Shown here in pieces: positions 6,128 to 63,303 of a stretch of 64,000 nucleotides of DNA; within the stretch, counting starts at the first letter, position 1, and each line of letters begins with the position of its first letter. The stretch is from Fistulifera solaris (lineage: Eukaryota; Bacillariophyta; Bacillariophyceae; Naviculales; Stauroneidaceae), in assembly GCA_030295235.1 (NCBI GenBank), contig AP026162.1, positions 2,604,001-2,668,000 of the forward strand, written 5' to 3'. The notes beneath the pieces are model-generated. The model had not been told where the DNA came from and did not search any database. It saw only the letters and a list, made by a program, of their open reading frames with translations. Made by a program: the position numbers and the translations under genes.

Positions 6128-6506
6128 ATGAGATCTTTCATTTACCTTATCACGCGATTCTTCATCTTTTTGGCATGCAGCCGCTGCACTGCGCAGGCCT
6201 TGTTGTTCGGCCTTTGTGCGAATCGAGATTGCTCTGCCGAATGCACCACCTTTGGTCAATCTTGTGGAACCCAAGGAGGCCTGTGTTTCCCCCGATCGCA
6301 AGATAAGGACTGTCTGGTCTGCGCATTGGATGATTTCATCTCTTTCGAGTGTCGCACCGATTTCATTTGCTCGTCACGGTAAGTGGTTGCCGTCTTCCAA
6401 TGTGCGACCTGATATACGTCCCACCACTTGTTTCTTTAGAAAAGTATGCGTGTTGCCTTATCCGGATACTCCGGAAGGATCGGGAAGCTGCTATACGAAA
6501 GCATAA
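6128..6506 (+). CDS. Small secreted cysteine-rich protein, subfamily A
   Basis: A two-exon gene: exon 1 is 6128-6378, the intron 6379-6439 (GTAAGT...TTTCTTTAG, 61 nt, phase 2) and exon 2 6440-6506. The signal peptide (MRSFIYLITRFFIFLACSRCTAQA) is followed by a mature chain of about 80 residues with 11 cysteines spaced C-x4-C-x3-C-x6-C-x6-C-x8-C-x2-C-x9-C-x5-C-x5-C-x13-C. The intron falls between the ninth and tenth cysteines, and exon 2 gives KVCVLPYPDTPEGSGSCYTKA. Reading through the intron gives a stop at once, so splicing is needed. It is related to the genes at 13377, 14718 and 22202. The protein is probably extracellular or on the wall, disulfide-bonded, with unknown function. It was probably divergent from the DUF285 gene to its left. 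Confidence 0.8.
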
Positions 6507-7351
6507 TAGGAATTGCAATGGAGTGAGGGAAGATGACGCAATATTATGATGTTTTGCACAACTCATGATAACACGACTTTTCCATGATACTCGTAAAATA
6601 ATTGTTTGTAACCTTATAGGAACCATTCTTGGTGAAACAGTCGATTGGAATTCATACTATAGCGCCGAAGATAATTTGTGAACGGCGACCCGCTGATACG
6701 AATGATGGAGGTTGCCGTAAGAGAATAACTTATGCTATATTTGTTGATTGCTCGTACCAAATGATAGAACAAGTAGCGAATGAACGAGTCAGCAAATGCG
6801 TACCAGGTATAGGATCGAAGATAAACGAGCGTCTGTTAAGTACGTTCATGCATTAATTAATTTCGATTTACGAAGTAGATTTGTCCGCACTCTTTTCAAA
6901 TTGAGTCGCATTGCTTGGGGAGGATCCTGCGCCGAACGTTGGCACGAATGACCGTTTTATGAGACGCAGCCGCTTTTATTGTCGATAATAGATACTCGAT
7001 CTGTATTACAGGTACGTTAATAATAAGCAATGAATGAATCGCTATTGACTCATAAATTGAGTCCCGAGACTGACACACGTCAGGTGACAGTCAGACCGCG
7101 TACGTACGTTGTTCAACGTGGAGGCGACGAACCGATGATGATTTTTGTTTTTGATTTTGCAACAATCAAACAACTCACTCACATCGATCCCCATTATATT
7201 ATATATATTGTTATCGGATTGTTACGACCCAAGTGTCAACAATCGCTTCTTCTTTACCTTTTCCTCGTTTTGCGACACGCTAACGAAGTTTTTCCAGAAA
7301 ACAGCAATATACTTACCGACTGTAATTCCTTCCTCTTCGATCTGTTTCCTC
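6507..7351. other. Intergenic, nothing recognised
   Basis: Short open frames only, with no recognisable domain, repeat or RNA gene. The Alb3 reading frame is open upstream to 7145, but the sequence before 7352 looks untranslated. Confidence 0.5.
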
Positions 7352-8670
7352 ATGAAAGTAGTAACGGCTTTTCTGTTTATCTCCGGCGTGCAAGCCTTTA
7401 CACCGCCGTTGCATCGTGTGAGTCATCCGACTACAACCACAGCGCGCTCCTTTGCCCCTTTGGACGCTTTCTCGGATTTACCGCAACAGATTAGCTCGAT
7501 GCAAGATGCCTTCGTGTCGTCCTCCACATTCTTGGCGGATGCTGCTGCCGAAGCCGCCACCGAAGTCGCCAAAAACGACAATGGCTGGTTCGGTTTCTTG
7601 ACGGGCCCCATTATGTTCTTACTGCAACTCATTCATGCCGGACTCGTTGCTGTAGGAGTCAGTTCGAATGCTTGGGGTGTCAGTATTATTGCCATTACCC
7701 TTCTAATTAAAGCCGTGACGTTTCCTTTGACGAAAACACAACTGGAAAGTACCAACAAGATGCAAGCGATGCAACCCGCCATTAAAGAATTGCAAGCGAA
7801 ATATCAATCCAATCCGGAAGTTATGAATCAAAAAATTGCCGAATTCTATCAATCCAACGACATTAATCCACTCGCAGGGTGTTTGCCGAGTTTGGCGCAA
7901 ATTCCCATCTTCATTGGTCTGTATCGAGCCGTCTTGGATTTGGCACAAGAAAATAAGCTCAATGAACCCTTTTGTGGTTGCCCAATTTGGAAGGTCCGAC
8001 GTATGGTGCGGATCCGACGTCCGGATCGGATTGGCTCTTCAAGGGATGGTGCGTCTGAAAAACGAAACAATTGCAGTATGTTTGGGTATGTGATAATGCT
8101 CACTTGTATTTTACTTTCAACAGGACCAACGGAGTTCCATCGCTGGGTTGGGATGATACCATTTCCTTTTGATTCTACCGGTATTGTTGGTGGTTTCGCA
8201 ATTTGTCAGTATGGAACTGATGCAACCCAAAACGACGGACTCGGCCCAACAACAGAGCAATGCCATCCTCAAAGCCTTGCCCCTCATGATTGGTTGGTTC
8301 AGTTTGAATGTGCCGGCCGCTTTGTGTGTGTATTGGTTTGTCAACAATGTCATTACGACCGGTCTTTCCTTATTCATTCGGAGTACGATGCCACCCCCGG
8401 CGGCCATGGAATTGAATACAGGCAGTAGTAGTACTACAAGTAAAGCCGCCATCTTTACGCCTCCGCGGGAAAAAACCGAGTGGATTTGGGACGCCCACGG
8501 AAAGCAGCAGCAGTGGCATCAAGACTTTGACCAAACAAGCCATTGTTGATGCGGAAGTCGTAGAAAAGAGTAGCAGTGACGACGACGAGGATAGTAGTAG
8601 CGAAGCTGCCACGGAAGAACCCAACAGTAACAGCACTAACAAGAAACGTGGCAAGAAGAAAAAGAATTAA
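7352..8670 (+). CDS. ALB3: Plastid Alb3/YidC/Oxa1 membrane protein insertase
   Basis: It inserts light-harvesting and other proteins into the thylakoid membrane. The ATG at 7352 gives a signal peptide (MKVVTAFLFISGVQAFTP) with an ASAFAP-like site for complex-plastid import, so the longer upstream frame is not needed. The YidC core follows: a first segment WGVSIIAITLLIKAVTFPLT, then MQPAIKELQAKYQ, then NPLAGCLPSLAQIPIFIGLY. After the intron (8049-8123, 75 nt) come FVSMELMQP and LMIGWFSLNVPAALCVYWF. A Ser/acidic/Lys-rich tail ends at 8670. The frame changes at three homopolymers: T4 at 7970 and T4 at 8167, each fitting T5, and A6 at 8470, fitting A5. All three restore family-like sequence, so I read this as an intact gene with base-call errors. 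Confidence 0.88.
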
Positions 8671-8842
8671 ACACCCAGCAAATCATCACTGACCCACATT
8701 GCTCGCAATCCATTACTCCAATTACAATCCCCGGCGGTGCAACGTAGGTAAAATACTCATTATTAAAGCGGAATGATAATACATCACAAAGAGTGAGTGG
8801 TCTTATAGCCTAGAATGAAATTTACAACTCGTCCTTCTTCAA

Positions 8843-9231
8843 CTACTTTTTCGTATTCTTCTTCTGTTTTCGTTCGTCATAATCATCGGGTTTCGGCATG
8901 GGATTTTGTTCCAAATGGACATTCCACGATGAACTACTCGTTGAGGTCATTCGACTGACATTAAATTGTTGCAATTGATCCAATCCTTTGATGGCAATCG
9001 AAATTTGTTGCTCAATTTTGTGCGGATCTTGTTCGTTTTGATAAAAGCGAAAATCCTCCCGAATCGCTTGATGTATTGAATCGCGTTTGCGGGATGGAAA
9101 TCTGGATAAGTGTGAGCGAAGAAAGGAGGAGGAGAAGAAGAAAGAACAATCCTACGAACGTACGTTTGACACGAACGCAACAATTTGCGATACAAATGCA
9201 ATAAAGATTGTTGTGTCGATGTGGCGGACAT
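8843..9231 (-). CDS. LYR-motif (Complex1_LYR) mitochondrial protein
   Basis: Exon 1 is 9164-9231, the intron 9102-9163 (GTACGT...TTATCCAG, 62 nt) and exon 2 8843-9101. The protein is about 108 residues. The N-terminus carries the LYR tripeptide in LLHLYRKLLRSCQTFPSRKR, followed by a conserved Phe (DFRFYQNEQDPHKIEQQ) and AIKGLDQLQQFN. LYR proteins are acyl-ACP-binding adaptors for Fe-S cluster and respiratory complex assembly in the matrix. The subtype cannot be fixed from sequence alone. The gene is tail-to-tail with Alb3, with about 170 bp between them. The Lys-rich C-terminus (KQKKNTKK) is unusual for the family. Confidence 0.8.
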
Positions 9232-9362
9232 TCTATCGTGCTAACAAATGAATTGGTGGTTGATGGAATGAATAAAGTGAAGAACGTTGTTGAGACGAAA
9301 TTGAAAACGCTTAAATATATATAACACACATTAAAACATCGTTTCATGAGATTAGCGAAAGA

Positions 9363-10260
9363 ATGAATGGGACGATGACAAAACGCAATCGCGCAGGTCT
9401 ACCTATCCAAGCACTTCCCCAGAAGTGTGACGGATGCAACAAACCCTTCTCGGTAGAACACGCTCAAACATGCAAACACGGCGGTCTTGTCATCCTTCGA
9501 CATGACGATGTCAAAAACGAATTCATGTCTCTTTGTGCGCAGGCGTACGGCCCAAAAGCAGTACGCAACGAACCGACAATCCACACTTACAGCACTGACA
9601 ATTGGAATGCACAAAAGAACAAGAACTTCGCGGTGACATTTCTACTTACGGTTTCTGGAGCGATCGGAAAACAACCATCTTTGACGTCCGCGTTACCGAC
9701 ACTGACGCCCCTTCGCACAAGAATCGCGAGCCAATGAACGTTCTTGCTTCCCAAGAACTCGAGAAACGAAGACTTTACGGTAAGCCCTGTATGGACCGCC
9801 GCCGTGATTTCACGCCTCTTGTTTTTTCTGTCGACGGGCTCATGGGTAAACAAGCTGTTGCGGCCTCACGCCAGCTTGCAAGAAAGCTGCAAAAGAAATG
9901 GAAGAGACCGTACTCAGAAATTTGTGGGTTTATCCGATCTCGTTTGAGTCTCTCGTTGGTTCGATCGGTGAGCATGCTATTGCGAAATCCGAGAGATGGC
10001 GCGCCACAGCGCAATCCTCCGCACTGGGAAACCGGCGCAGGTTTGTCGCTTTACTACTAACTGTGGTACAGTGATTCAGAAATTGGAGTTTCTGAAAGAA
10101 AGAAAAAACAATATTTGTGCCAAAAGAGAAAAACCAGTGGAAAATTCAGTCAAATGTCGAAAAAGCATCCGCATTTCAGGAAAATTAGGAATAAATATTT
10201 AGGATTTTATTATACAACTTAAAAATCAAAAAGGAGTGCGCGTTCGTTGCGCCTAAGGTT
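9363..10260 (+). mobile_element. 3' remnant of a LINE-like non-LTR retrotransposon
   Basis: Only the part downstream of a reverse transcriptase is present. There is a zinc-binding block (CDGCNKPFSVEHAQTCKHGG, then HDDVKNEF). A restriction-like endonuclease-type segment follows (RGDISTYGFWSDRKTTIFDV, RVTDTDAPSH, FTPLVFSVDGLMG). The frame shifts near 9613 at an A4 run that fits A5. No reverse transcriptase lies upstream, so the copy is 5'-truncated, as LINE insertions usually are. The AT-rich 3' tail includes a 24-nt string starting AAATTAGGAATAAAT (10182-10205) that recurs exactly at 31456-31479, probably the family's 3' end. Confidence 0.65.
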
Positions 10261-10366
10261 GGTGATAAGGCAGTGACGTCATTCATCGTTCCTGGCTAGA
10301 GGGATCAAAGAAAACCAATGAAGTTGGGCCTTCCCAGTCCCATCGAACCATTTCGGCACTTTTTTC

Positions 10367-12576
10367 TCATTCCACATGAACTTGATGGAGATCCGTATGC
10401 AATTGCTGTATACTTTTTTGTAATTGGTGCCATTCTGTCTTGGAAAGCGTACATCCGTTACCACATTTCTCCGTGACACCCCGAAACGTCATTTGCAAAT
10501 TCCAAATTTGCGATTCAATGTGAGACGGCAATGCTTCATGTTCATTCCACGTAGTCGTTGTGTCATGGAAGGTGGGTGAAGTCGTTCCTTCCTCCTCCTG
10601 CTGATGTTTGGATCGTGTCACGGATGCCGTCGTTGCTTCAGACGAGTTTGAATTCGAAGCGTTGGAGGATCCCGACGACGACAACAGTTGACTCATGATT
10701 ACGGTTTGTCCACTCCACGCCCGATGTATTTTTGGCCACACCAATAACACTAAAACTGTCAAAGCAATTCCAATCGAAACAATCGATTGCAACAAGACGA
10801 CGGCACTCGGTGACGTATTGGGGTCATCAATGACTTGCGCGACGGCCATCGACATGGCCGTGATAATAGCCGAAATGGTGGCGGCATGAAAAATGGGATC
10901 TTTTCATTGAAACAAAAGGGTAAATCACGGGACAACCAGGCCAGAATGACGGCCAACAGATACAAACCACAAGAAATACCGGTTCCCACCAATGTGATCC
11001 AGTGATCGACATTGCCACAAACGACGCGTCCGGCGGTACCCAATTCGTTGAGTTCTGTGACCAATCGGGCATTGTCGTGGAGCGCAGCATAAATTTGTAA
11101 GGCGACTTGAGGTGCGATCAACATCCCGATCAAACACCACGTTTCTGTGGCGGTTACGGCACTGCGAATGGATTTCCGGGGTCCCTTGCTTTTACTGTTT
11201 TTGGAAGAATGACACGATGACCACAGCGAATACGGAATGCGTGCCAAGGCATCCAAACATCCCACTACGTACGTATCGAGCCATGGTTGGGATTCGGACG
11301 AACGTCCCAGACGTTGGACCGCCGACAACGTCCCGTACACGCGCCACACGCGTCCCACCAAGACAGCTGCCACCAGAGCAATGGGCAATTGCACCAAGGG
11401 TCCTCGTAATTGACAATATTCGTCTTTCGTCGGAAGATGCGTAAACGAAAACACAATTTGCACCAAACACGCGGCCGCCATGAGAGCCAAGAAGGGTGCT
11501 TGCGCCAATCGCATCATGGCGTGTTGTCGATACACAACAATGGCCCCGAAACAAACGAAAGCAAACATTCCGGCGACCGCAATCACGACCGCCAACACAA
11601 TTTTCGTGCGATTTCCGACGACGGCAATCTCCGGAGGTGGTGACACGTACACGACTTTGGATGGTACCGTTTGTGCCACATCCAATCGCACTTGTTCTCC
11701 TTCCGCAGTGAGTCCTAGAGGAACAACCGCTTGTCCCAATAACACAAAGGGCCGGGCGCCCATTTTTTCATAGATCGAATTGTCGTTTGTGGGCAACGGA
11801 AATTCAATCGTAATCGGAATGGTCGTACGATACAATGTGGTAGTATTCTGTCGTCGCAATTTCCATTTGCACCATCGTCCGTAATAATAATCTTCACCCA
11901 TAAGGGTCAATCCATTCAAAGTGACATTGGGATTGTACACCCACTTGTCGGCGGTTTCGGGGAATTCCGCTACCGGTTCTCCTGGCAAGGGTTGATCCGC
12001 TTGCGCACGGGTCAGAACGGCATCTTCGGAACGCGTATCGCGAATCGGATCACACCATCCTTGCAACGCATCACACAAATGGAGTCGAAAATAAATTTCC
12101 CAAATATCCGGCAATGTCTTGTTTTGTAAAGGAATGGTGACTTGGGCAAAATCCATTTCCAAATCCATTCCGACCGTATAAGGACGTCCGAGAAACAATT
12201 GCGGTTCCTGTTCGAGGTCGTACGAATTCACCGACAGCATTGTGCCGGCAAAACATTCCGGCAACAGTTGCGATTCATCCGACAAGGCAAACATTTCTTC
12301 ATTGCTGCTCTCAATGAGATTGGATTTTTGGGATTCTTGCGCCGAAGAATTCCACGTCGTTTGCCAACACATGGTGGCATTGCCCCCTTGATCGTACCCA
12401 TTGCGGGTTCCAAATAGTACTGTAGTGTTGTTGTTGCTTTGCAAAGATCGGTGCGGAGCGACTTGTTGCGACAAAGCCGACACGGCGTTTTGCGTACAAC
12501 AACAACAGCAGACGAGAAGGAAGAAGGATGCTGCATCTATCATTCTTCGGCTGAGTGAAGTTGATTCCAGGTTCAT
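10367..12576 (-). CDS. Class C (GABA-B-like) seven-transmembrane receptor
   Basis: A signal peptide (about residues 12-35, including FFLLVCCCCC) leads into an extracellular part of about 280 residues with cysteines and N-x-S/T sites. Seven membrane segments follow: KIVLAVVIAVAGMFAFVCFG, the PFLALMAAACLVQIVFSF region, LVQLPIALVAAVLVGRVW, CLIGMLIAPQVALQIYAAL, ITLVGTGISCGLYLLAVILA, HAATISAIITAMSMAVAQVI and SIVSIGIALTVLVLLVW. The FNEK sequence before segment six matches the class C hallmark. The frame steps at 10901-10904 (T4 on the plus strand, fitting T5), after which the last two segments and a Ser-rich, partly helical cytoplasmic tail read on. There is no obvious Venus-flytrap ligand domain. 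It is likely a plasma-membrane receptor; ligand and G-protein coupling are unknown. Confidence 0.72.
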
Positions 12577-12635
12577 GTTCCAGGAAGCGAAAGGTAGGAT
12601 ATGTTGATAGACGGCAAGTCGAGTAATAGGAACGT

Positions 12636-12662
12636 TTCATTCATTCATTCATTCATTCATTC
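12636..12662. repeat. (ATTC)n microsatellite
   Basis: A perfect run of about six ATTC units, 60 bp upstream of the receptor start. Confidence 0.95.
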
Positions 12663-13376: not shown

Positions 13377-13768
13377 TTAGGCCTTCGTGTTACAAGTACC
13401 CGATCCCTCTGGATCACTCGGATCCCTCAGTACACATACTTTACTGGGAGAAACAGCTTGAGCGGTGATGGATATTCGAAACCCGTTAAGCAAGCGTTCG
13501 GAGTCACTTACTTTCGAGCGCAAATCAAGTCTCGTCGACACGTGAAAGTGATAAAATCATCCAAGGCACACACCAAACAATCCTTATCTTGCGATCGGGG
13601 AAAACACTGTCCTCCATTACTTCCACACGATTGACCGAACGTCGTGCATTCGGTCGAACAATCTCGATTTCCACAAAGGCCGAACAACAAGGCCTGCGCG
13701 GTCCTGCTGCAGAACGTCAAAACAAGCAAGAAGCGCGTAAGAAAAGATATGATTGATTGCATTGTCAT
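13377..13768 (-). CDS. Small secreted cysteine-rich protein, subfamily A
   Basis: Exon 1 is 13512-13768, the intron 13444-13511 (68 nt, phase 2, GTAAGT...TCTCCCAG) and exon 2 13377-13443. The signal peptide MTMQSIISFLTRFLLVLTFC is followed by LLFGLCGNRDCSTECTTFGQ and the same 11-cysteine pattern as the gene at 6128. Exon 2 encodes NKVCVLRDPSDPEGSGTCNTKA and a stop. The mature parts of the two proteins are close to identical over the first 45 residues (QDKDCLVCALDDFI is shared), so this is a fairly recent duplicate. The function is unknown; secretion is inferred from the signal peptide. Confidence 0.8.
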
Positions 13769-14717: not shown

Positions 14718-15127
14718 CTAGGCATTCGATGCACAAAATCCAGAGTCCTCTTCATCCAAATCATTCAACACGCATATTTCACTAAGAAACAAGAAAAGGC
14801 TTTGGGTGATATCGCTTTCCGAGCAAATGGCACGCACGACATAAGCAACAGATACTTACGCTCGATGGCAAATCACATCTCGTCGACACGGGAAACTAAC
14901 ACTATTATGTCTCACGCAAACCAAACAATCCTTATCATTGACTCTAGGAAAACACTCTCCCCGTTACTTCCGCAAGACTGGGCGAACGTTGTGCATTCGG
15001 TAGAGCATTCTCGGCTCCTTGAACAAAGGCCGAACAAGAAGGCGTGCACAGTCATGCTTGTGCAAGCCAAAACGACCAAGAAGCGCGCCGTGCAAGCTTG
15101 AATTGATTTCATTGTCGTGTAATTCAT
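14718..15127 (-). CDS. Small secreted cysteine-rich protein, subfamily A, apparent frameshift
   Basis: Exon 1 is 14860-15127, the intron 14782-14859 (GTAAGT...TTTCTTAG, 78 nt) and exon 2 14718-14781. The product starts MNYTTMKSIQACTARFLVVL (the Met at 15112 is an alternative start) with a signal peptide, then LFGLCSRSRECSTECTTFAQ. At a four-base C run (14959-14962; G4 on the coding strand) the frame is one base short. Adding one restores DKDCLVCVRHNSV, the phase-2 junction, and EICVLNDLDEEDSGFCASNA. The error is of the same kind as in conserved genes nearby, so this is probably an intact gene rather than a pseudogene, although a real frameshift is possible. It is more diverged than the 13377 copy. 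Confidence 0.65.
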
Positions 15128-15221
15128 ACAGGGCGTTGTAACATAAAGGAAAATGAAGTATAATATGGAGTATTATTCATTGTTTTGTCCTAATAGTAAA
15201 AGCAACGAAAATCCGACGCAC

Positions 15222-15434: not shown

Positions 15435-18400
15435 GGTTATGAGCCCAGTTCACGCCGATTGGATTTGATTCGATTGAAAAGCGTGAATCTGAGTGTGTTG
15501 AAGTCATTCTCTCTGGTGGATGACTGATCGTGGAGAAGAAGAGGAAAGCCTTCCATCGTTACAGGAAGAAGAAGAGGAGCCCGACAGGCTTCATTTGAAC
15601 GTTTTCTGGCAAGGAGAAAGAGATTCGGATTCGGATTCGGAGTCGGAAGAAGAAGAAGAAAAGGATTCGGATTCGGAGTCGGAAGAAGAAGAAGAAAAGA
15701 TGGCCGACGACGATAATTTGGACTATTTGAGCCAGAAACTTCGGAGTTGCTCTGGCGACCGACCGTACCACCCAGGAAGTTAAGAAGAAGAAACCTTTGG
15801 TCGAAGCTAAGGATCGAGAAAGTATGAAGCCGAAGGAGAAGTCCCAGCTGCATGAAATTGCTACGGCGGGCATCGGAAACGAAGTTCGAGATCATGGATT
15901 CGATCAATTTGAATGATGGAGAAGCGGTTGCGACTCTGTCGAAGGCATACCGTGTTGATTTACGCATCGCTGAAGTTCGTGCGGTGGCGAACGATACGAC
16001 ATGGATGATGTTTTTCAGATTCCGCTCGGAGTTTGTGGCGCACCCGGATTTTTCGGTGCCGATTCCGACCGCACGCAGCGAAATGGTAAATTTGTTTACT
16101 GGATATTACAAGTTGGATATGGATACTATCAAGAAAGCTTGTGATTTCTACGCGGTGCAAGGTGCAGATTGGCAGGTCGAGAATTTGCAATGGACCGGGA
16201 ATTGATCCTCAACTGTTGCTCGCCCGACTTGCGAACTCTGATTGAGACACAGGCCCAGAGTGTACCCTACGGAAAAGAGGCGGCCTACCAGAGCGGGCCG
16301 GTCTACTTTAAGATGATGATGGATTACGTTATCGTGCGTGATTCGTCGGCTATCCGAGGGCTTATCAGTCAGTTCGAGTCGACACGGTTAAGAACTTTCC
16401 GGGAGAAAATGTGCGCGACTATAATACGGTTGCGGTGGGCGTTTACAATATGCTCGCAACTTCGATGAACTTATCGGCTAATGCGGCGATTCCGGATATG
16501 GCGAAGCTTGTGAAGCGTGGATTGATCGCGAGCTCTACCGGAGTTTAATAGCGATTTGACAGCCCATTCGGTGCTATTGGGACGCGATTGTACCGTTGAG
16601 GCTTTGACCGATAAAGCCAACGAGTTGTATTCTGGCTTATTGGGAGCAAGTCTTTGGGTTGCTGGCGATGGAAAGCAAAGCGACTCTGGATTCTTTGCCG
16701 GGAACTGCTATGAGTGCGGTGAGAAAGGACACAAGTCTGTCGATTGTCCGAAGAAGAAGAAGGACGGCGATGGAAATAACAACTCTGGCAACCGTGGTTC
16801 GGGCAATGGTCGTGGAAATGGCCGTGGTGGACGCGGAGGCCGTGGAGGAGGTCGTGGTGGTCGTGGCGGACGCGGTGGTGGAAGAGGCGGAGGCGATTCG
16901 AACGGTTCGAATGACAAGAAAGAAAAGGATCCCTTCAGTACCCCGCCCAAGAAAGGCGAAAGTCACACGAAGACCATCAATGGAAAGACTTACCATTGGT
17001 GTGGACGGTGCAATCGCGGGTCGATCACGACACGACCAGCATCGAGCTATGTTAGCGTTAAAAGCGAGCGAACCTTCGGATACCAAGTCGTCTGACAAGT
17101 CGGATGACAAGAAGGAGTCCGGAAACTTCGCAGGGCGCTTTGACGCCAGCGTTTTTAATGGGCCGCTTCAGTGGTTTTCTGGACCACTGGAGCAGATGGC
17201 CCAAACTCTCCAGAATTGGAAAGGAGTTTATGAAGACAAGCTTCCGAAGCAAGCTCGGGATTATTGGGCTGTTACTTTGGTTGCTTATGGTTGGAGTTAT
17301 GATTTTCGAAGCGATTGTCGATGGTTCGTGTTCGGCCGATTGTTTTGATGGAAATGCCACTTCGCTTGCATTTTATGGCGGAGGGTGTGTTAGGATTTGG
17401 TTCTGTTGCCCCAGTTTGGTTTGACGTTACACGCAGACCGATTGTGCGCGACAGAGAGAGAGTTGGAAAGAAGAAGCGACGTCGTCGCTTGCCGTGGTTT
17501 CGCGAGGAGCAAGACTCGGGAGTCAAAACGCGTCACGAAACGTCCTGGATTCCTAGGAGACGAGATTTCTGAGTGGATTAAAGGATGGGCAGATATACCC
17601 GTTCGCTATGTTCCTCACGATTCCTGAGATGTTCGATGAAGCGTACGTGCCAATCCTGAATTTTTGGATCTCCTCTGTGGTTTTGGTCGATTCAAATGGC
17701 TACGGTGCCTCTCGTTGACAGAAAATCTGGCATTGACAGACAATCTGGTTACATGCTTAGCGACACTCAAGCCGCTTACGTACAACAATCTGAGTCCTGT
17801 TGATGGATGTGTTCAATTACAGAGCGTCTACTTTGGTGCAATGAATGATACTTCTATTGTGTTCGATACTGGCGCGTCAACTGGTGTTACCCCACATCAC
17901 GATGATTTTATTGATTTCACTCTGAGTGATTCGTCTTTGACCGGGATCGCTCAGCAAGCACGAAGTTCGTGGTTCGGGTACTGTTTCCTGGACGGTTCGA
18001 GATGATACTGGACAAGAGCATGCATTGAAAACGCGGGCTCTTTATGTGCCTGACGCTCAAGTTCGCTCTTTAGTCCACAAGTGCATTTGCAGCTCGAAGC
18101 TAGAGGGGGTCGTGGTGAATTTCGGAGTCACGGAAAAGGGTTCTGTCTTTCGATTTCCTTTTACGAAGAAGTCGTTGACGTTCCATGCGACACATGACCG
18201 ACTTCCCGATTGCACGTTTAGCGACGGATGCTGTTGACGACCTCTCTGCGTTTTCCGAGTTTTACGCCGCCTCAGGTTGCGGTGGAAGAAAATGTCCATC
18301 TTTCACCGGGCAGTGCGAGTTGAAACTGTTACACGATCGTTTGGGACACTTTAATTTCCCTTGGATTCAGCGACTCACGCGAGTTCGAGAGGGGGATAGA

Positions 18401-21400
18401 GTGCAGGAGCCCATTTTGCGAACAAAATACAAGTCTACGCCCTCTTGTGCGCCGCCGATCTGTGCTTCGTGTCAGTTTGGCAAGGCAAAACGAAAGGCTA
18501 TTGGAACGGAAAACAAGTCGAAAGTCCCAGAGAGAGATGGTTCGTTGAAAGAAGGTATCTTGACGCCAGGTCAGATGGTATCGACGGATCAGTACGTGTC
18601 AAGTGTGTCGGGTCGACGATCGCATACTTACGGGAAAGAGCAAGAGCAAGACAAGTTCAAGTGTGGGACAATCTTTGTGGATACGGCTACGACGTACCTG
18701 TATGTCGAAAATCAAGTGTCCACGTCGTCAACGGAAACTATTCGATCAAAACATATGTTCGAGAGAGAGCCTCGTTCGTATGGAGTTGAAGTCAAGGAGT
18801 ACCAGCGCAGATTTAGGAGTGTTCAAGTCGCAGGAATTTCTGAAGGATTTGGAGTTGCAAGGACAGCGAATCCATTTCTCCGGTGTCGGTGCACACCATC
18901 AGAACGGAATTGCAGAGAACGCGATCCGAACTGTGACAGAAAGCGCGAGGACGATGCTACTGCACGCGATGATTCACTGGCCAAGCGAAACGTCCGGTGG
19001 ACTTATGGCCATTTGCGGTAGACTATGCGGTGTACTTATGGAACAGGTTACCGAAGCAGGATTCGGGACTTGCACCGGTCGAGCTACTGTCTGGAGTTAC
19101 GATGGATATGAGTGTACTTCAGCGAATGAGAGTGTTCGGATGTCCGTGCTACGTTCTGGATACTAGGATTCAAGACGGAAAGAAATTACCGAAGTGGAAG
19201 CCGAAAAGTCGAAGAGGTCAGTTCTTGGGAATGTCGAAGCGACACGCAAGTACAATTGGGCTTATTAGGAATTTGAGAACGGGAGCGGTTTCGCCACAGT
19301 TTCACGTGGTGTACGATGACAAGTTCACGACGATTCCGTTGGTTCCGAAACCTGATGTCGAAGAGCCCGAACCAAAGGATTGGGAAGAGTTACTTACATT
19401 TAGCCGAGATAAAGTTGAACCCGAGGATGGACAAGAATTACCTTTGCTACACGAGGATTGGTTGACTGACGAAGAAAAGAAACAGAGAGAGTTGTTAATT
19501 CGACGACAAACACAAGAGAGAAACTTGGCTCCGGGACCTCGCCATCGAGAACCGAGAGTCGAGCCGAATCAGATTCATGCGGATCAAGATCAAGATGAAG
19601 TTCCTATGTTTGCTCCAGAGAGAGATGATAGTGATGATGAGGATGTGGAAGAACCTGCTCCTCGTCGAAGTGAGAGACCGCTGACGTTGGAATCGCGAAG
19701 TATTACGGTTCCGATTTCGTAAATCGGCCTGTTAGTCGTGGAAGATTTTATGGGCCCGACGACGATGACAACATTGAAGAAGTTTATATTGCTGAGCGCG
19801 ATATGACGAAATTCGGAAAGGAGACCGAGTCTGAGCTGATAGAGAAAGTACAGAAAGAGTTTGGTCTTCCGTCGGAGAATGAAGCTTTTCTGGCGAGTCT
19901 GGATTTTGATGGGGACATCTTGTCGCGAGGGAAATTGGGGTGCGCATGCTTTGTTGATGCGATCGAACGTCGATGAGGACGGATTGCTCGATGATTTGCA
20001 TCCTTTGGCGTTTGCTAAAGCGAACAACGAAGACACTCCGAATTACCACCAAGCCGATGAATGGACCGAATAGTGAGGGCTATCGTCAGCGATGGTCGAA
20101 GAGATCGAGTCGTTGGAAAGTTTGGATCCTTGGGACGTGGTTCCGAGATCTGACGCAGTTGAAAAGGGAGCGAATATCTTGCCGAGCACTTGGGCGTTCA
20201 AATGCAAAAAGATACCCCGATGGTCGGATCAAGAAATTTAAGGCAAGATGGTGCATTCGCGGAGATCGTCAAATTGAGGGCGCTGATTTCTTTGAGACGT
20301 ATGCCCCAGTGGTTTCGTGGAGTACCGCTCGTTTGCTGTTGATTCTGTCGATCGTCTTGGGCTTGGCTACGAAGCAAGTCGACTATACGTTGGCGTTTGT
20401 GCAGGCTGACCTGAACGAGGAAGTGTTCTGTGAGATGCCGAAAGGATTCGAGCGTCCGGGATAATGCGTGTTGAGATTGAAGAAAAGTGTTTATGGGTTA
20501 AGACAGAGTCCCTTGAACTTCTTTAATTGTTTGAAGAAGGGATTGGAAGATCGAGGATTTGTTCAGTCGAAGAATGAACCTTGTTTGTTTATGTCGAGAA
20601 AAGTTGTTTGCTTGACTTACGTTGATGATTGCCTGTTCTTCGCGACGTGAGGAACGCGACATCGATGCAGTGATTGACGATCTGGCGAACAACGAAAAGT
20701 TCCAGAGATTTCAGTTGAATATTGAAGACGATGTTGCTGGATTTCTTGGGATTTTGATTCAAAGAAAGGAAGATGGATCGATTGAGCTTTTGCAAAAGGG
20801 ATTGATTGATCGGATTTTAGTCACGATGGGTTTACAGGATTGTCGGACGAGTTCGACTCCTGCTGAATCGAAAACGCTTGGAAAGGATTCTGATGGAGAA
20901 GACTGTGTTGAGAAGTGGTCATATGCCTCAGTTGTCGGAATGATGATGTATTTGGCGTCGAAATCACGACCAGATATTGCGTTTGCGGTGCATCAATGTG
21001 CTAGGTTCACGCACTGCCCGAAACGAATAGCATTGAAACGAATTGGTCGTTATTTGAAAGCAACGAGTGATCGAGGGATGATTATTCGTCCGGATAAGGA
21101 CTTGAGATTGGATCTTTACGTGGATGCCGATTTCGCGGGATTATGGAATTCCGAAGACGCGAACGATCCTACGAGTGTGAAAAGTCGTACTGGGTATGTT
21201 ATTACGCTTGGAGGTGTTCCGGTGCTTTGGGGATCTAAGTTGCAAAGTGAGATTTCGTTGTCTACTACGGAAGCGGAATTTATCGCAGCGTCTATGGCAA
21301 TGAGACAGTTGTTACCCGTACGCGAAGTTATGGAAGAGCTGACGGAGCATTTCAAGATCGAGCGGAGTGCAGAGTCTACTGTTTCTATTGTGTGGGAAGA

Positions 21401-22201: not shown

Positions 22202-22588
22202 TCAGGCTCTTCGAAAGCATGTCCCGGCTTGTCCTTCATCAGGATTTTGGTATTCGGACACACATACTTTGCTGGGACCGTCCGAAACAACAGTGATCAA
22301 TACTTAGATGATACAAGAGAGCGACGATGACACATCGAAGAAAACGTACCCCGGAGCACAAATAAAATCGCTTAGACATTTGATTCCAAGTCCTCCAAAC
22401 GATGTGCACACCATACATTTGCTGTCTCCAAATCTATAATAACATTGCTCATCATTACTTCCGCAAGGTTGACGGTAATACGTGCATTCCGCGTCGCAAT
22501 CCGTGCTGGAGCACAAATCGAACAGCTGAGCATGAGAGGTCGTCCCCAAAATTAGAGACAGCGTTGCGAAAGTGATAAATTGGTGCAT
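22202..22588 (-). CDS. Small secreted cysteine-rich protein, subfamily A, divergent member
   Basis: Exon 1 is 22350-22588, the intron 22272-22349 (GTACGT...GTCCCAG, 78 nt, phase 2) and exon 2 22202-22271. The start at 22588 is chosen because MHQFITFATLSLILGTTSHA is a clear signal peptide; the frame is open 55 codons further upstream, but that part corresponds to untranslated sequence at the paralogous 6128 locus. The mature chain starts QLFDLCSSTDCDAEC and keeps the 11-cysteine frame, and exon 2 gives GKVCVSEYQNPDEGQAGTC. It is transcribed divergently from the DUF285 gene at 23112, with 523 bp between the starts, mirroring the arrangement at 3.3-6.5 kb. Confidence 0.8.
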
Positions 22589-29852: not shown

Positions 29853-30815
29853 CTACGATGCAGGGCATGTCACACAGAACTGATTGCCCGTCGGCGTACC
29901 CGGATGAGGGCAACTCGTGTCCGTAAACATGCCCGTTTTCACAGCGGCAGAATTCTTCCACGCACAGAGGTTTTGATGGAACGCTTCCGCCGTCCGAAAC
30001 ATGTCTTCCATGGTGGTGACTTTTGCAATGTCCCAGTTACCAATGGGCCGGTTAAACGATTCCGCTCCATCAAACATATTTTGCATGGAAGTAACTTTCG
30101 ATGTGTCCCATCCACTCAAGTCTCGGTTAAAGGATTCGGCATTGGCAAACATCAAACTCATGTCGGTTACCGCCGACGTGTCCCATCCTCCGATGGGTTG
30201 ATTAAAGGCTCTGTCGCCCCCGAACATGGAGCCCATGTTTCTGACAGCAGAAGTATCCCATTGACTGATATCCCGATTGAAATTAGTATTGGGGAACATG
30301 GCGGCCATGGTCGTGACCGCGGCCGTGTCCCAATCTCCAATATATTGGTTGAACGCTAAGGCAGCATTGAACATATCAATCATGTCTGTGACCGCCGAGG
30401 TATCCCATTTTCCAATCTTTTGGTTGAACGCTACCGCTTGAAAGAACATGCCTGCCATATTCGTAACAGCAGAAGTATCCCACTCGCCAATATCCTGGTT
30501 GAAGTCGAGTGCTAAAAAGAACATGTATTCCATAGTAGTAACCGCCGATGTATTCCAACGACCGATGGGTTCATTGAAGGTATACACTTCCGAAAAGAGT
30601 TGACGGAAATCGGTAATTTTGGAAACATCCCAACAGTTGGGTTTGGGTACCGAAATAAGGGGATTGTAAGTTTCAATCGCATTGCGCAGCTCGGCTTTGT
30701 CGTCAAAGGGTCTTGTCCCATTCGGACACGGATCCGGAGGCGGAGATCGATTGCCACAACTCGCGAAGAGATCGTTGCGATCGAAAAGAGACGACGATGA
30801 AAAGTAAAGGTTCAT
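29853..30815 (-). CDS. DUF285 (BspA-like) repeat protein
   Basis: 320 residues from the Met at 30815 (MNLYFSSSSLFDRNDLFASC). The same frame is open 65 codons further, to 31010, and I cannot exclude a longer N-terminus. Residues 20-60 hold DPCPNGTRPFDDKAELRNAI, then PNCWDVSKITDFRQLFS. About ten 24-26 residue units follow (for example EWDTSAVTNMAGMFFQAVAF) with F-N-Q/R/E-x-I/L-G/S at each boundary, and a cysteine-bearing cap (CAWKN, DTSCPHPGTP, FCVTCPAS). The solenoid probably mediates extracellular binding, though no clear signal peptide is visible. It is intact, unlike its neighbours at 29497 and 3280. Confidence 0.85.
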   Translation of the reverse strand: MNLYFSSSSLFDRNDLFASCGNRSPPPDPCPNGTRPFDDKAELRNAIETYNPLISVPKPNCWDVSKITDFRQLFSEVYTFNEPIGRWNTSAVTTMEYMFFLALDFNQDIGEWDTSAVTNMAGMFFQAVAFNQKIGKWDTSAVTDMIDMFNAALAFNQYIGDWDTAAVTTMAAMFPNTNFNRDISQWDTSAVRNMGSMFGGDRAFNQPIGGWDTSAVTDMSLMFANAESFNRDLSGWDTSKVTSMQNMFDGAESFNRPIGNWDIAKVTTMEDMFRTAEAFHQNLCAWKNSAAVKTGMFTDTSCPHPGTPTGNQFCVTCPAS

Positions 30816-31010
30816 GTTGTTGTTACTCTTATTATTGACGGAACGATAGATCGGACGACTTACTTGTGATTTTCTCGAATGCAAATATGCAATCGTTTTG
30901 TCGACCCAAAAACAAATGGATAGGTAGTCTATTAGTACTGTAATAGTGTAAGGATCTCCGTGCTTAGTGCAAAACGACGATGAGAGATGAGAAATACCCG
31001 TAATGAACAA

Positions 31011-41971: not shown

Positions 41972-42002
<31 letters not shown>

Positions 42003-48897: not shown

Positions 48898-49395
48898 ATG
48901 AATCTCGATTCCCTCCCTATTGTGTTGTTCTTCCTTTCTGCCTCCTGCACGGGCGCATCCGGTGCTGATGAACGCGGATCTCTTTTCAATCGCAACGTCC
49001 TTTTTTCCAATTTTCTGTGCTTACCTGTGCTGGATGACTGCAATAGGAATAGCAAAACGGAGAGTTGCGATGGTGAAGGCGATCCTTGTCTCGGAGATTT
49101 CGGTGGCTTGGCCTGTGTCGAGACGACCCGAGGAGGTAAAGTGTGCGCTGCTCCGTTGGAAGGGCCTGCACAGTTTTGCACGAAATCCAGAGATTGCCCG
49201 GAAGAGTAAGTGTGTCTTTATATAAATGAGAAAATGCCTTGCGGTTTGATGATAGACCAGTACGTTTCTGACACGGCAAACTCACCCTTCTGTCTCGGAT
49301 TCATTATTTTCTTATATTTTAGTCAAGTTTGCGCGGTGATTGGAGATTGTTTTGCGACTAATGTATGTGTTACGCAAGTTCGCCGTTTCGATTGA
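48898..49395 (+). CDS. Small secreted cysteine-rich protein, subfamily B
   Basis: Exon 1 is 48898-49205, the intron 49206-49322 (GTAAGT...TATTTTAG, 117 nt, phase 2) and exon 2 49323-49395. The signal peptide MNLDSLPIVLFFLSASCTGA precedes a mature chain with 11 cysteines spaced C-x6-C-x8-C-x6-C-x8-C-x9-C-x10-C-x5-C-x5-C-x5-C-x5-C. Landmarks are LCLPVLDDCNRNS, GDPC, CVETTRGGKVC, FCTKSRDC and, after the intron, DQVCAVIGDCFATNVC. The C-x5-C-x5-C core around the splice site and the intron phase match subfamily A. The function is unknown; a disulfide-rich secreted protein is inferred. Confidence 0.78.
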
Positions 49396-51815: not shown

Positions 51816-52239
51816 ATGAATAAGCTTCTCTTCGCCTCACTCGTGCTTTGCTTTCTTTCGGCTTTTATAGAAGCGGAAACCGAAAACGGTCACCGCTCAC
51901 TCTTGTTGCGGAATTTCTTGTGTTTGCCCTTGTTCGACGGCTGCAACTGGAATAGTAACACTGTCGGCAACGGTTCCGGTGATTCTTGTATGGATGATCG
52001 AGGAGTATGCGCTGAAACGACCGAAGGTGGCGTCGTTTGTGTCACCGAAGGACTGGGTGACGGAGATCCTTGCAGCAGATCGAGAGATTGCTCGGGAAAG
52101 TACGTTTTACATTCCGCGTTTTTTTGCTCTTTGACGCAGCTTTTTCTAACTTTATTCTCGTTCATTTCTTTTTTTTAGCCGAGTTTGTATTACGCTCAAA
52201 AATGGTTTCTGCGTGACGCAACTTCGTCGTTCGGATTGA
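51816..52239 (+). CDS. Small secreted cysteine-rich protein, subfamily B
   Basis: Exon 1 is 51816-52099, the intron 52100-52178 (GTACGT...TTTTTTAG, 79 nt, phase 2) and exon 2 52179-52239. MNKLLFASLVLCFLSAFIEA is the signal peptide; the upstream in-frame Met at 51759 is rejected. The mature chain carries LCLPLFDGCNWNS, DSCMDDRGVCAETTEGGVVC, DPCSRSRDC and NRVCITLKNGFCVTQLRRSD. One early cysteine of the subfamily pattern is missing (GNGSGDSC in place of CDG-type), so the first disulfides may differ. The end VTQ-x-RR-x-D matches the 48898 gene, its closest relative. Confidence 0.75.
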
Positions 52240-57684: not shown

Positions 57685-59667
57685 ATGAGAAAAACAATAC
57701 ACGCCCTCGCGATTATGTTGCTAAATGCGCTAGCATTACATCTAGTAATCAGTCACGTGCGAAGACGAGAGGAATTATTCATCGACAGCGAGAATGAGTC
57801 TCAGCAGAATGGAATCGTGCAAAGCGACAAACGCCATGATGCATCTATATTCGCTTTCTTTCGTCGTTTGAATAAGTCTAGTGAAAGCAACGTGAAGAGA
57901 TCGCTAATTACACGACATAAAGCACTTTTGCCGACAGAATTACTGCACGAAGAAGAAGTCGTCAATTCGATATCTTCGAGAGATGGTCTCGTGCAATTAA
58001 GCGAGGAAGACGAAAACCATTCGAATGTCGGATTCTTTCCAAAGGGTTTTGCTATTTTCTCTGGTCTTGGAAGAGGAGAGGAGATTGATAGCGAAGAAAC
58101 AGAGACGGAAGACGAGGGCTTGTTTTCCGAAGAAACATCAGATCTTGGTGATGGAGATCAAGTCTCTTTTGATTTTCTGGATCCTCCTGCTGTTATCGAC
58201 GAAGCGGAAGATGCGGAAATAGATACAATCGATACGAGTCCAGATAACGGTTCAGTTGTCGACCGGCCGCAAGCCTTTTTACCAGTTTTTGGAGACGATG
58301 CCTCGGAGAAACATTATCTGAATTTATTTCAACCCGATGATCTACCCGATAAACCAACCGAAGACTCAGATCAATTTCAACCACTGTATAACCTTGAGAC
58401 CGATCCCGATAATGCCCAAGATTACAGTGAGATTTTCCTTTCTGTCTTTGGTACACGGTCGCCGAATCGATCGCCGGCACCGACCGTGGCGCCGTCGGAA
58501 GGATCTTCTCCAGGCCCTAGTCCGGAACCGTCTTCTCAAATTGTAGGAACGCCCATGCCGACTCCTCAATCCAGTTCCGCCAGCTCAGTGGCTCCTACTG
58601 AATCCTTACCATTGTTTACTTTTGCGCCGTCTACGGGGGATGCCCCGACGTCGCGACCGGATGCCTCCGTCACAGTGCGACCCACATTGTTGAACGCCCC
58701 GACGCTGCGACCTGCTACCCCGACGTTGAAACCTACCCTGTTGGATGTTCCGACGGTACGACCCACGTTCACCACCCTGCCTACCGAATCGACGCCTCTC
58801 TTTACACTCATGCCGACCACCGGAACGACAACGGTGCCTTCCAGTCAGACGACAACCACACCGGGTGTTCCAACGATGGCTCCGACAACCTCCAGTGCAC
58901 CGGCGGGTAATAATAGTAATGTCAGCTTGGCTCCGTCGATCGATGGGTCTGTGATAAGCGCTTCACCTACAATCATTTCAGCGTCTAACTCCTCCGCGGC
59001 ACCCACGGGAAGCGGAACGGAAACATTGCAACCGTCGATAGGAAACGCCACACAGGCTTCGAGCTCCAGTAGTCCCACCCTGAGTGTAACGTCCCTGTCA
59101 GCGTCACCGTCTGTGGCGGATAATGCAACCGTGCTTCCGACCCTACCACCGACGTCCACTGCCGCACCATCCATATCTGCGCCGCCGTCGTTTGCTCCAT
59201 CAATCTCTCCGGCTCCGTCTTCCACATTCTCTCCGTCCATTCTGCCATCTGCCGCACCTTCCTTGGCGGGATCGCCGTCGGCCGCTCCCTCGACAACGGT
59301 GGCTCCCAGTGGAAGTCCCACTGTTCCGGAAAGTCTGGAACCGCCGGGGGCGCCATCGATCGCCGCCAGTAGTCCACCGACGGTGCTTCCTACCAACGCT
59401 CCGACCGCCGGTCCGACGGCAGTTCCAACGGCAGCGCCAACCACGGCTCCTACGCTTGTCCCAAGTCCGGCACCTACCGCCAGCCCCACCGCGGCACCAA
59501 CCCCCATTCCCACTCCACAGCCTACCAGCAGTCCGGTCGCGTCAGTGGCTCGTCGCGATGTTCAACTACAGCAATCTACTCTTTCATCATCCTCGGCTAG
59601 TAGGGCAGTTTCCTCTGTACATATCATCGCTGGAATAACAACCTTCATTTTACTGGTGAACTCTTAA
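57685..59667 (+). CDS. Mucin-like Pro/Ser/Thr-rich surface protein with GPI-like tail
   Basis: 660 residues, one exon. A signal peptide (MRKTIHALAIMLLNALALHL) leads to an acidic, Ser-rich part (about 30-260), including DDASEKHYLNLFQPDDLPDK and SEIFLSVFGTRSPN. Residues 265-630 form a long Pro/Thr/Ser/Ala region with degenerate A-P-T and A-P-S units (for example APTVAPSEGSSPGPSPEP), probably O-glycosylated, as in diatom cell-wall and adhesive proteins. The hydrophobic C-terminus (VHIIAGITTFILLVNS) after a Ser-rich spacer looks like a GPI-anchor signal. No catalytic domain is visible. The acidic half is tandem-like (EEIDSEETETEDEGLFSEE). Function in wall or adhesion is inference. Confidence 0.75.
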   Translation: MRKTIHALAIMLLNALALHLVISHVRRREELFIDSENESQQNGIVQSDKRHDASIFAFFRRLNKSSESNVKRSLITRHKALLPTELLHEEEVVNSISSRDGLVQLSEEDENHSNVGFFPKGFAIFSGLGRGEEIDSEETETEDEGLFSEETSDLGDGDQVSFDFLDPPAVIDEAEDAEIDTIDTSPDNGSVVDRPQAFLPVFGDDASEKHYLNLFQPDDLPDKPTEDSDQFQPLYNLETDPDNAQDYSEIFLSVFGTRSPNRSPAPTVAPSEGSSPGPSPEPSSQIVGTPMPTPQSSSASSVAPTESLPLFTFAPSTGDAPTSRPDASVTVRPTLLNAPTLRPATPTLKPTLLDVPTVRPTFTTLPTESTPLFTLMPTTGTTTVPSSQTTTTPGVPTMAPTTSSAPAGNNSNVSLAPSIDGSVISASPTIISASNSSAAPTGSGTETLQPSIGNATQASSSSSPTLSVTSLSASPSVADNATVLPTLPPTSTAAPSISAPPSFAPSISPAPSSTFSPSILPSAAPSLAGSPSAAPSTTVAPSGSPTVPESLEPPGAPSIAASSPPTVLPTNAPTAGPTAVPTAAPTTAPTLVPSPAPTASPTAAPTPIPTPQPTSSPVASVARRDVQLQQSTLSSSSASRAVSSVHIIAGITTFILLVNS

Positions 59668-60358: not shown

Positions 60359-60842
60359 ATGAAATCTTGCTACCTCTCCCTGTGTCTCCTCTTCCTTCTC
60401 ACATCCCACTCCGTTTTTAGCGCCGAAAATGAAGAGGACAGGGATGCTTTTCTGTTCGGCCGCTCTGCTCGGTTTGCCAACGCTTTGTGCTTGCCATTGC
60501 TCGATGGTTGCAACAGAAACAGCCAACTCGTGGACTGTGATGGCCTCGGTGATCCTTGCAGCGATGGCATATCATCATGTGCAAGAACCACCGAGGGCGG
60601 AATAGCGTGTGCCGTTCGAAGCAGCGACAGCGGGGCACTCTGCGAGAGCTCCAGAGATTGCCCAAGAGAGTAAGTACCTCAGTTGTGGCCCTGTTTTTCA
60701 TCTCGGCAGAAAAAACTCAAAGAAGCAGCATTGACTCGGATAATTTAACACTAACACTGGCTTGTCGTCTCTTAGTCAAGTCTGCATCGATATTGGAGAT
60801 TGCAACGACAAACGTTGCTTTAAGCAGTCTCGTCGTGCATGA
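60359..60842 (+). CDS. Small secreted cysteine-rich protein, subfamily B (array member 1)
   Basis: Exon 1 is 60359-60669, the intron 60670-60775 (GTAAGT...CTCTTAG, 106 nt, phase 2) and exon 2 60776-60842. Signal peptide MKSCYLSLCLLFLLTSHSVF. The mature chain begins with an acidic stretch, then FLFGRSARFANALCLPLLDG, CNRNSQLVDCDGLGDPC, CARTTEGGIAC, GALCESSRDC and DQVCIDIGDCNDKRCFKQ. LFG near the mature start echoes the LFG-L-C of subfamily A. It is the first of three tandem, same-strand genes about 1-1.5 kb apart. The function is unknown. Confidence 0.8.
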
Positions 60843-61368: not shown

Positions 61369-61837
61369 ATGAAGTTCTCCAACACAGCCATGTTTCTCTT
61401 TAATCTGTCTACATATATCTCTGGTGCTCATGCTTCGAACGACGACAACGACGTTTCTATGTTTGGTCGCTCCTCTCGATTCTCCAACGCTTTGTGCTCG
61501 CCACTATTCGATGGTTGCAGCAGAAGCAGTGAATTAGCCGGATGCGATAGACGGGGAGACCCATGCAGTGGAAATAAATCGGCGTGTGTAAAAACTACTG
61601 AAGGTAATGTCGTATGCGCTGTTAATGACGATGACAATGGAGCCTCCTGCAACTCGTCGGAAGATTGCGACAGCGAGTAAGTACATTGGAAAGACGCACC
61701 GTATCATATTGGCACAATAAATTATAACTGACACAATTCTGAACGTCGACTTCGTTGTTGATCGTTCATCTAGCCAAGTTTGCGTTTCCTTCGGCTCTTG
61801 TTCTCCCAATCAATGCATCAAACAGGCGCCTGGCTAA
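61369..61837 (+). CDS. Small secreted cysteine-rich protein, subfamily B (array member 2)
   Basis: Exon 1 is 61369-61676, the intron 61677-61773 (GTAAGT...TCATCTAG, 97 nt, phase 2) and exon 2 61774-61837. MKFSNTAMFLFNLSTYISGA is the signal peptide. DVSMFGRSSRFSNALCSPLF, DGCSRSSELAGCDRRGDPC, ACVKTTEGNVVC, ASCNSSEDC and, after the intron, DQVCVSFGSCSPNQCIKQ follow. It is close to the 62819 gene (DVSMFGRS...FxNALC is shared), so the pair is a recent tandem duplication. The 60843-61368 spacer holds nothing else. Confidence 0.8.
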
Positions 61838-61984
61838 TGTTGATTTACAAGCAAATATTGACAAATAAGAACGATTATTTATGAACTCCAATATGCATGC
61901 ATGCGCCCTTGCATTTGCTGTAGCTCTGTAAATGATCTTGCTTTCACTTGTAGTACTTCAAAAAATGCAAGCGCATGAATACTA

Positions 61985-62450
61985 TATCCCAACCTTCAAA
62001 AAATTGTCGGGGTTCAGACAATTTTTATTTTGCGGTAAAACTCTGAATCAAAAATTGTATACCAGTTCGACAATTTTTGTCACCGTCGTAGAATTTGTAT
62101 GACATTGCTACGTAACGCCGATTTGAGAATGTACCAGCGTTTCTACGTGAAAGACCCGGAAGTAAAAGGCAGAAAAACCTCAAAAATAGATTTAAAAACA
62201 AAACATACCATTCTATTCAGTATTTTCTAATGCATCTAACTGATAAATTTGATCTTTTGTTTATTCATTATTTTGGTCAGAAACTGATGATTTAAATTAT
62301 TTTCCAAAGGGTTAAGGATATGCTGTAGTAGTATTTGTACTTTGTACGTGAGAAAAATTGTCTGGGTTCAGACAATTTTTTTATGTACTAGCTTACGTAA
62401 AGCTACAGAAAATTGTCTGAACCCAGACAATTTTTGAAAAGGTTGGGATA
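61985..62450. mobile_element. MITE, Tc1/mariner-like, with TA target duplication
   Basis: 466 bp, with ends TATCCCAACCTT...GGTTGGGATA and flanking TA (61983-61984 and 62451-62452). Terminal inverted repeats extend about 45 bp, through AAAATTGTC and GGGTTCAGACAATTTT. The terminal motif is itself a hairpin (AATTGTCTG-GGTT-CAGACAATT) and recurs internally near 62350-62380 and 62408-62436. There is no coding capacity. It sits between array members 2 and 3. The superfamily is inferred from the TA duplication. Confidence 0.8.
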
Positions 62451-62818
62451 TACTGTTTTGATCGGACAATAATTAATCCTTTCTTTGACGGCTTCATCCC
62501 TTCATGAAGGGTTACACTGGACGAAGGGTTACAGAAGAAGATAAGAATAAGCGTCAGAAGCTGACTTACGGAGTTACGGAGTATATGTTTTCGTTTTGAT
62601 ACGCGAGAAGAAAAATGGATTACGGTACCAGGTAAACCTCTATCCGCGCACGAGCGCATGAATAGCTCGGCAAGATGAATCCGGTACTTATTACGTCATA
62701 GTATTAACGCGGATTCTGGTCTTGCGGAACTCACATAGAATAAAAATCTGCTTAGTCAACGCACTGCGCTTTTCGCTCACATTTTTAAGAAACCAAAGAC
62801 TTTTCTATTGATCGCACA

Positions 62819-63303
62819 ATGAAGTTCTCCGCTGCCTCCACCTTCATCTTTGTTCTTCCCAACTCTATCTCTGCAGCAGACGTCACAAACAAAGACGACC
62901 AGGACGTCTCGATGTTTGGTCGCTCAACCCGTTTCTTCAATGCTTTATGCTTGCCATTGTCCGATAATTGCAATAGAAAAAGTAAAGTAGCCGACTGCAA
63001 TGGGAGTGGTGACCCCTGCAGCAACAGCAAATCCTCTTGTGCAAAAACAGCCGAAGGTGGCGTAGTTTGCATTGTCGACGACGAGGACAATGGGGCCCTC
63101 TGCAGTTCGTCCAGAGATTGCAACAGCAAGTAAGTAGATCAAATATAGCGCCCTGTATCCGTCAGGCGCATATAATCACTACACATGCATGAACTTTGGT
63201 TTTATTGCTAATGACTCATTGTGTAACATGATCCTCCAGTCAAGTTTGCGTTGCTCTCGGAGCTTGCTCTCCCGGTCAATGCTTCAAACAGGAACCCCGC
63301 TGA
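62819..63303 (+). CDS. Small secreted cysteine-rich protein, subfamily B (array member 3)
   Basis: Exon 1 is 62819-63129, the intron 63130-63239 (GTAAGT...TCCTCCAG, 110 nt, phase 2) and exon 2 63240-63303. MKFSAASTFIFVLPNSISAA is the signal peptide. VSMFGRSTRFFNALCLPLSD, NCNRKSKVADCNGSGDPC, CAKTAEGGVVC, GALCSSSRDC and, after the intron, NQVCVALGACSPGQCFKQEP follow. All 11 cysteines of the subfamily are present. The spacer to member 2 is longer than between members 1 and 2, partly because of the MITE. Confidence 0.8.

Follow-up and report, generated by a model that had tools for sequence, protein, structure and literature searches.

A multigene family of small, apparently secreted cysteine-rich proteins with a shared phase-2 intron in the diatom Fistulifera solaris

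Do the small two-exon genes for cysteine-rich proteins found on one stretch of the genome of the diatom Fistulifera solaris belong to a single family, how far does that family extend, and what could its products do? The stretch, called the window here, comprises 64,000 nucleotides (nt), contig C1:2604001-2668000 of a 51.7-Mb, 61-contig assembly. An earlier note on it had proposed a family of nine genes in two subfamilies, A and B, joined by one conserved intron and by common descent, locally expanded and matching no described family. Judged by its sequences, the family looks real and undescribed; groups A and B are homologous on the evidence of profile comparison and architecture, local expansion is supported, and the proposed size of nine is superseded by at least 34 loci, which include two further groups, S and C.

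Genes of the window and loci in the genome

Gene models were built by enumerating GT-AG introns from the start codon to the exon-2 motif; most genes allowed several mechanical solutions, and the one with a consensus donor and an intact cysteine frame was chosen. The mature part was counted from residue 23 on, which is an assumed cut. Eight of the nine proposed genes are open two-exon reading frames with one phase-2 intron each. In group A, gene A1 lies on the plus strand at 6128..6506 (exons 6128-6378 and 6440-6506; 105 residues; 11 cysteines from residue 23; 61-nt intron), and positions 13377, 14718 and 22202 are the 3′ ends of the minus-strand genes A2 (13377..13768; exons 13768-13512 and 13443-13377; 107 residues, or 105 from the second methionine; 68-nt intron), A3 (14718..15112) and A4 (22202..22588; exons 22588-22350 and 22271-22202; 102 residues; 78-nt intron with a GTACGT donor). 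The group B genes of the window are all on the plus strand: B1 (48898..49395; exons 48898-49205 and 49323-49395; 126 residues; 117-nt intron), B2 (51816..52239; exons 51816-52099 and 52179-52239; 114 residues; 79-nt intron), B3 (60359..60842; exons 60359-60669 and 60776-60842; 125 residues; 106-nt intron), B4 (61369..61837; exons 61369-61676 and 61774-61837; 123 residues; 97-nt intron) and B5 (62819..63303; exons 62819-63129 and 63240-63303; 124 residues; 110-nt intron). The ninth gene, A3, has a frame change in exon 1 between 15112 and 14957 and is either a broken copy or an assembly error; its intron (78 nt, counted by eye) and exon 2 (EICVL...) are still recognisable.

The intron is the most uniform feature of the window genes. 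All eight intact introns run from a GTAAGT or GTACGT donor to an AG acceptor, fall in the 61-117 nt range given earlier and interrupt the same place, C-x-x-[split codon]-x-[VI]-C, between cysteines 2 and 3 of a C-x5-C-x5-C core. Where the donor of a phase-2 intron is GTAAGT, translation of unspliced RNA would meet a TAA stop immediately and yield a product without the last cysteines, an effect general to introns of this kind. The expected 11 cysteines from residue 23 on are present in seven of the eight intact genes, and B2 has nine. A hydrophobic N-terminal stretch is found in all eight, weakest in B4, so that the signal peptides claimed for these genes are predicted, by hydrophobicity. Cysteine density alone is not distinctive, as 19 open segments of the window carry at least 8 cysteines per 70 residues and 11 of them, several antisense, lie outside the eight family genes; 20 control windows shuffled in 100-base blocks held 0-4 such segments. 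What distinguishes the family is common spacing, intron place and sequence.

Whole-genome searches, for which A2, A4, B3, two S and three C proteins served as queries, located at least 34 loci (5 A, 18 B, 3 S and 8 C; counts for a large family from such searches are lower bounds), of which 33 were read, the exception being contig C1:24059. Five loci are broken or degenerate: A3, L015, L024 and L025 through frame breaks, and L031 through loss of cysteines, its start being unclear. Among the loci read, 28 have an unbroken module, and in 24 of these (4 A, 14 B, 3 S and 3 C) the intron occurs at the same place and in the same phase; the claim of one conserved intron thus holds outside four group C loci (L061, L062, L064 and L065), which have no interruption at that point. 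These four also carry a GC[NT]C-x-N motif. The N-termini of the group C loci L063, L064 and L065 were not resolved, and the group C copies on contigs C13 and C14 lie 1-2 kb from the contig starts. A further candidate at contig C2:2347378 (L060; expect value (E) 0.08) was rejected as a chance match on reading.

Family loci on the contig pairs C1/C2, C25/C26, C9/C10 and C13/C14 resemble homoeologous pairs; the pairing is our own reading of the sequences. The F. solaris genome is called allopolyploid in the abstract of PMC5935921. Of the 34 loci, 28 are no farther than 120 kb from a contig end. Once homoeologs are collapsed, 6 of 9 places are near ends against about 28% expected (binomial 0.018), a comparison in which the 120-kb limit was set post hoc, the expected share is an approximate figure supplied by hand and the collapsing was likewise done by hand; it suggests that the family is crowded towards contig ends. 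Pieces of the window from 43-64 kb match contig C8:36-55 kb, nearly all inverted and at about 65-85% identity, and contig C7:38-50 kb, also inverted, where identity is about 72-89% in the main colinear pieces. These homologous blocks are close to the ends of contigs C1, C7 and C8. The translated core of B1 is nearly identical to that of L024 on contig C7, even though L024 is frame-broken. Telomere-like CCCTAA repeats were looked for at contig C8 alone and are present at positions 1-280 (L035). At the other side of the window, pieces from 1.5-31 kb match the end of contig C2. Window positions 6150-12430 and contig C2:2445500-2451050 (L046) are inverted relative to each other; the ends of contigs C1 and C2 concerned appear to be homoeologous, and a group A copy lies inside the inversion.

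Homology of the four groups and their cysteine frame

In a MAFFT alignment of the eight window proteins, eight cysteines and one valine preceding a cysteine are invariant. The earlier statement that A and B share little except an LFG landmark was therefore too modest. The landmark itself reads LFGL or LFDL in A1, A2 and A4, reads LFNR, LFGR or MFGR in four of the five B genes, and is absent from B2. Profile comparison with hhalign gave a probability of 75.9 (P 2.3e-5) for B against A. The combined B and S profile scored 38.1 against A (probability 87.6), and none of 100 cysteine-fixed shuffles reached that score (best 26.4); with S and C added, A against B scored 35.0 (best shuffle 22.7). The links of B to S and of these two to C are clear, with B against S scoring 82.9 (best shuffle 27.7) and B and S against C scoring 66.1 (best shuffle 20.7), again with 0 of 100 shuffles reaching either score.

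The opposing explanation denies any relationship between A and B and puts their common cysteine motif, a generic one, and their common intron down to coincidence. It would account for single-sequence genome searches in which A2 and A4 retrieved no B loci and B3 no A loci, and for the weaker profile results: under other settings B against A fell to a probability of 16.7 (P 0.0015, score 24.2), a score reached by 0 of 100 cysteine-fixed shuffles at a narrow distance from the best of them (23.9), and C against A alone was not significant, with 6 of 100 shuffles reaching the score. Coincidence nonetheless seems very unlikely given the shuffle control for B and S against A and an intron at the same codon position and in the same phase, which adds weight to A-B homology. 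As C against A alone is not significant, group A joins the family through B and S. The four groups would then be descendants of one ancestor, and the intronless C loci would have lost the phase-2 intron or split off before it was gained.

The spacing of the cysteines links B and S closely. Twelve B proteins have 11 cysteines, spaced by gaps of 6-8-6-(5 to 8)-9-(8 to 11)-5-5-(5 to 6)-(4 to 5), apart from a third gap of 10 in L029; in S the gaps are (24 to 95)-8-6-5-9-8-5-5-6-5. As S has the B spacing after cysteine C1, it can be described as the B frame with a longer spacer between cysteines C1 and C2. This spacer is proline/serine-rich (Pro/Ser-rich) in L042 and L057; that of L056 is shorter. 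Every one of the 21 A, B and S proteins modelled has an odd number of cysteines from residue 23 on (11 in 19 of them, nine in the other two). Both B2 and L026 lack cysteines C3 and C10, and their joint absence suggests that these two are probably bonded to each other. The odd count, together with the remote position of cysteine C1 in S, points to that residue as the likeliest one to be free or to bond between chains.

The computed products are uniformly acidic (25 of 25, isoelectric point 4.2-6.1). The ratio of nonsynonymous to synonymous substitution rates (dN/dS), obtained over whole genes with a Nei-Gojobori script, is 0.07-0.29 in 13 of 14 pairs, the A2-A4 pair being saturated. Purifying selection is thus seen in 13 of 13 estimable pairs, and these whole-gene values lend no support to diversifying selection, which had also been considered.

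Public protein models and known families

Public protein models of F. solaris agree with the splicing proposed here. From its second methionine, A2 is identical to FisN_12Lu001 (P0001), and B2 is identical to FisN_2Hu011 (P0004). Five public models in total (P0001, P0002, P0003, P0004 and P0007), which are gene predictions rather than RNA evidence, are spliced at the same junction; they correspond to A2, L006 (the contig C2 copy), L023, B2 and L028, some from a later methionine. A profile search that scored 1070 candidates gave 15 matches; three named F. solaris as their source and 12 named no organism. Among these 12, 11 stop at the donor or no more than about 10 residues from it, which is what a gene caller that ignored the intron would produce, and one (P0010) reads through the intron; at least two of the 12 (P0006 and P0012) match loci of the F. 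solaris genome in their coding part.

The protein search relies on shared five-residue words. Searched as a single sequence, B3 found no match, although the profile search retrieved three F. solaris B proteins from the same database, and single-sequence negatives therefore mean little. The shared intron can serve as a marker for relatives that such searches miss. Restriction of group B to Fistulifera is plausible from the matches obtained; for group A it was hardly tested, with three candidates in the protein search.

The view that no described family accounts for these proteins is upheld by the curated collections searched. No Pfam family exceeded its cut-off in the eight window proteins, three S/C proteins, two C proteins and 11 overlapping representatives, and NCBIfam gave no match for the four proteins tried. 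UniRef names link P0001 and P0004 to TNFR-Cys or SRCR, and the name of P0003 begins with Dickkopf. A comparison with Dickkopf_N (PF04706), proposed in the earlier note, found similar cysteine spacing and a weak match in three of 11 scanned members (best E 0.015), but none reaches the curated cut-off of 25 bits, and a genome search with this family gave two matches (best E 0.31), none over the cut-off and neither at a family locus. For TNFR-Cys and SRCR, no Pfam family matches A2 up to E 1 and the four sub-cut-off families of B2 include neither. The public names are thus not supported by these scans.

Resemblances to other small proteins are weaker. Searches of PDB gave matches at E 0.1 or worse, or none. 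Scytovirin (PDB 2jmv), a cyanobacterial lectin, has a C-x5-C-x5-C-x5-C stretch like that across the B exon junction, but at E 0.15 the likeness is one of motif and is not significant. Colipase-like matches are likewise weak. Frustulins are described in PMC4712521 as having acidic cysteine-rich ACR domains with the motifs CQGDCD and VPGCSG, joined in some by proline-rich linkers. They resemble the present family as acidic, cysteine-rich diatom proteins, and the S proteins likewise join a Pro-rich stretch to a cysteine module, but C.GDCD and VPGCSG are absent from all 25 family proteins tested. Tryptophan-rich and polyglycine domains also count as frustulin features; the comparison was made on the two motifs alone. 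The usual features of small secreted cysteine-rich families are all present, namely an N-terminal hydrophobic stretch, a short mature part, a conserved cysteine frame and multiple genes. Among the literature matches listed, judged by titles and the starts of abstracts, no paper was taken to be on this family.

Possible roles of the products

The explanation favoured here, by a modest preference, is that the genes encode small, acidic proteins, rich in cysteine and apparently secreted, which as a multigene family supply the cell surface or extracellular matrix with a module for structure or binding, cysteine C1 possibly being available between chains. The predicted signal peptide would send the protein to the endoplasmic reticulum, where cysteines C2-C11 may fold into a compact core with five disulfides (four in B2 and L026), probably including one between cysteines C3 and C10. 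Cysteine C1, as the odd one, could form an interchain disulfide in a dimer or a tether to wall or mucilage, and in the two S forms whose spacer is rich in Pro and Ser, that spacer could act as a stalk holding the module off. A surface or matrix role is preferred because two proteins carry the module behind a Pro/Ser stalk and because the products, apparently secreted, are acidic and evolve under purifying selection. Among diatom proteins, those rich in Pro and Ser often belong to the wall or serve adhesion. An open reading frame of 660 residues at window positions 57685-59667 (+), between B2 and B3, combines a long stretch of PS/PT-rich sequence with a C-terminal tail that is hydrophobic and is possibly a surface-anchored stalk protein. 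Most of the stretch that holds it matches the contig C7 and C8 blocks, which is counted in favour of a surface role.

Several points weigh against this preference, in addition to the weaker profile comparisons described above. The group C products and pieces read have 12, 14 or 15 cysteines, so that odd parity fails there; the link from PS-rich sequence to the wall is general background on diatom proteins, and the stalk argument draws on two proteins. Signal peptides were judged on hydrophobicity, and the family is known here from its genes. Secreted defence or allelopathic peptides, encoded in multiple copies near chromosome ends and directed against bacteria, parasites or grazers, are a conceivable but clearly minor alternative: their size, cysteine density, copy number and position would fit, as would broken copies left by birth and death, but the selection found, measured by whole gene and not by site, is purifying throughout, the products are acidic rather than cationic, and the S forms are better explained by a surface role. 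That the proteins are secreted protease inhibitors of knottin or hirudin-like type is unlikely; the weak matches, to hirudin-type inhibitors (E 0.1) and, for B2 below the cut-off, to a carboxypeptidase A inhibitor (E 0.052) and an EB module (E 0.8), are neither significant nor over a curated cut-off, and the hirudin profile covers only the last cysteine cluster. Mating or cell-recognition signals appear quite improbable. Such signals could be multi-copy and secreted, as these proteins apparently are, and the protein searches named only F. solaris, but purifying selection argues against them and no connection with a sexual locus emerged, none having been looked for.

A bolder extension of the surface or matrix reading, offered tentatively and with low confidence, is that the family constitutes an undescribed diatom extracellular module, in which a five-disulfide core and an external cysteine C1 would cross-link proteins into a covalent surface or mucilage network. 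In this reading the length of the spacer between cysteine C1 and the core, from 6 to about 95 residues, would be a tuned property, and exchange among chromosome ends would tune copy number. Rapidly evolving proteins are regarded as the building material of diatom walls and mucilage. What the family offers is a defined cysteine frame, homology argued across groups that have diverged, pairs of apparent homoeologs and a prediction about one cysteine that can be tested. F. solaris is reported to have been transformed (PMC4712521) and gene-edited (PMC13276009).

Other features of the window include an open reading frame at 58-1410 (+) with matches to sigma-70 regions 2 and 3, the product of which is presumably plastid-directed in a diatom, and one at 10759-12576 (-) with a match to the seven-transmembrane part of class 3 G-protein-coupled receptors (PF00003, E 2e-12). 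Near the group A genes, positions 18185-19021 (+) have a GAG-pre-integrase match below the cut-off (E 9.9e-5) and may be a retrotransposon remnant. The reading frame at 29853-31010 (-) has a strong DUF285 match (E 1.6e-124, four stretches), and DNA related to it occurs at 23.4 kb in the window and on contigs C2, C7 and C8.

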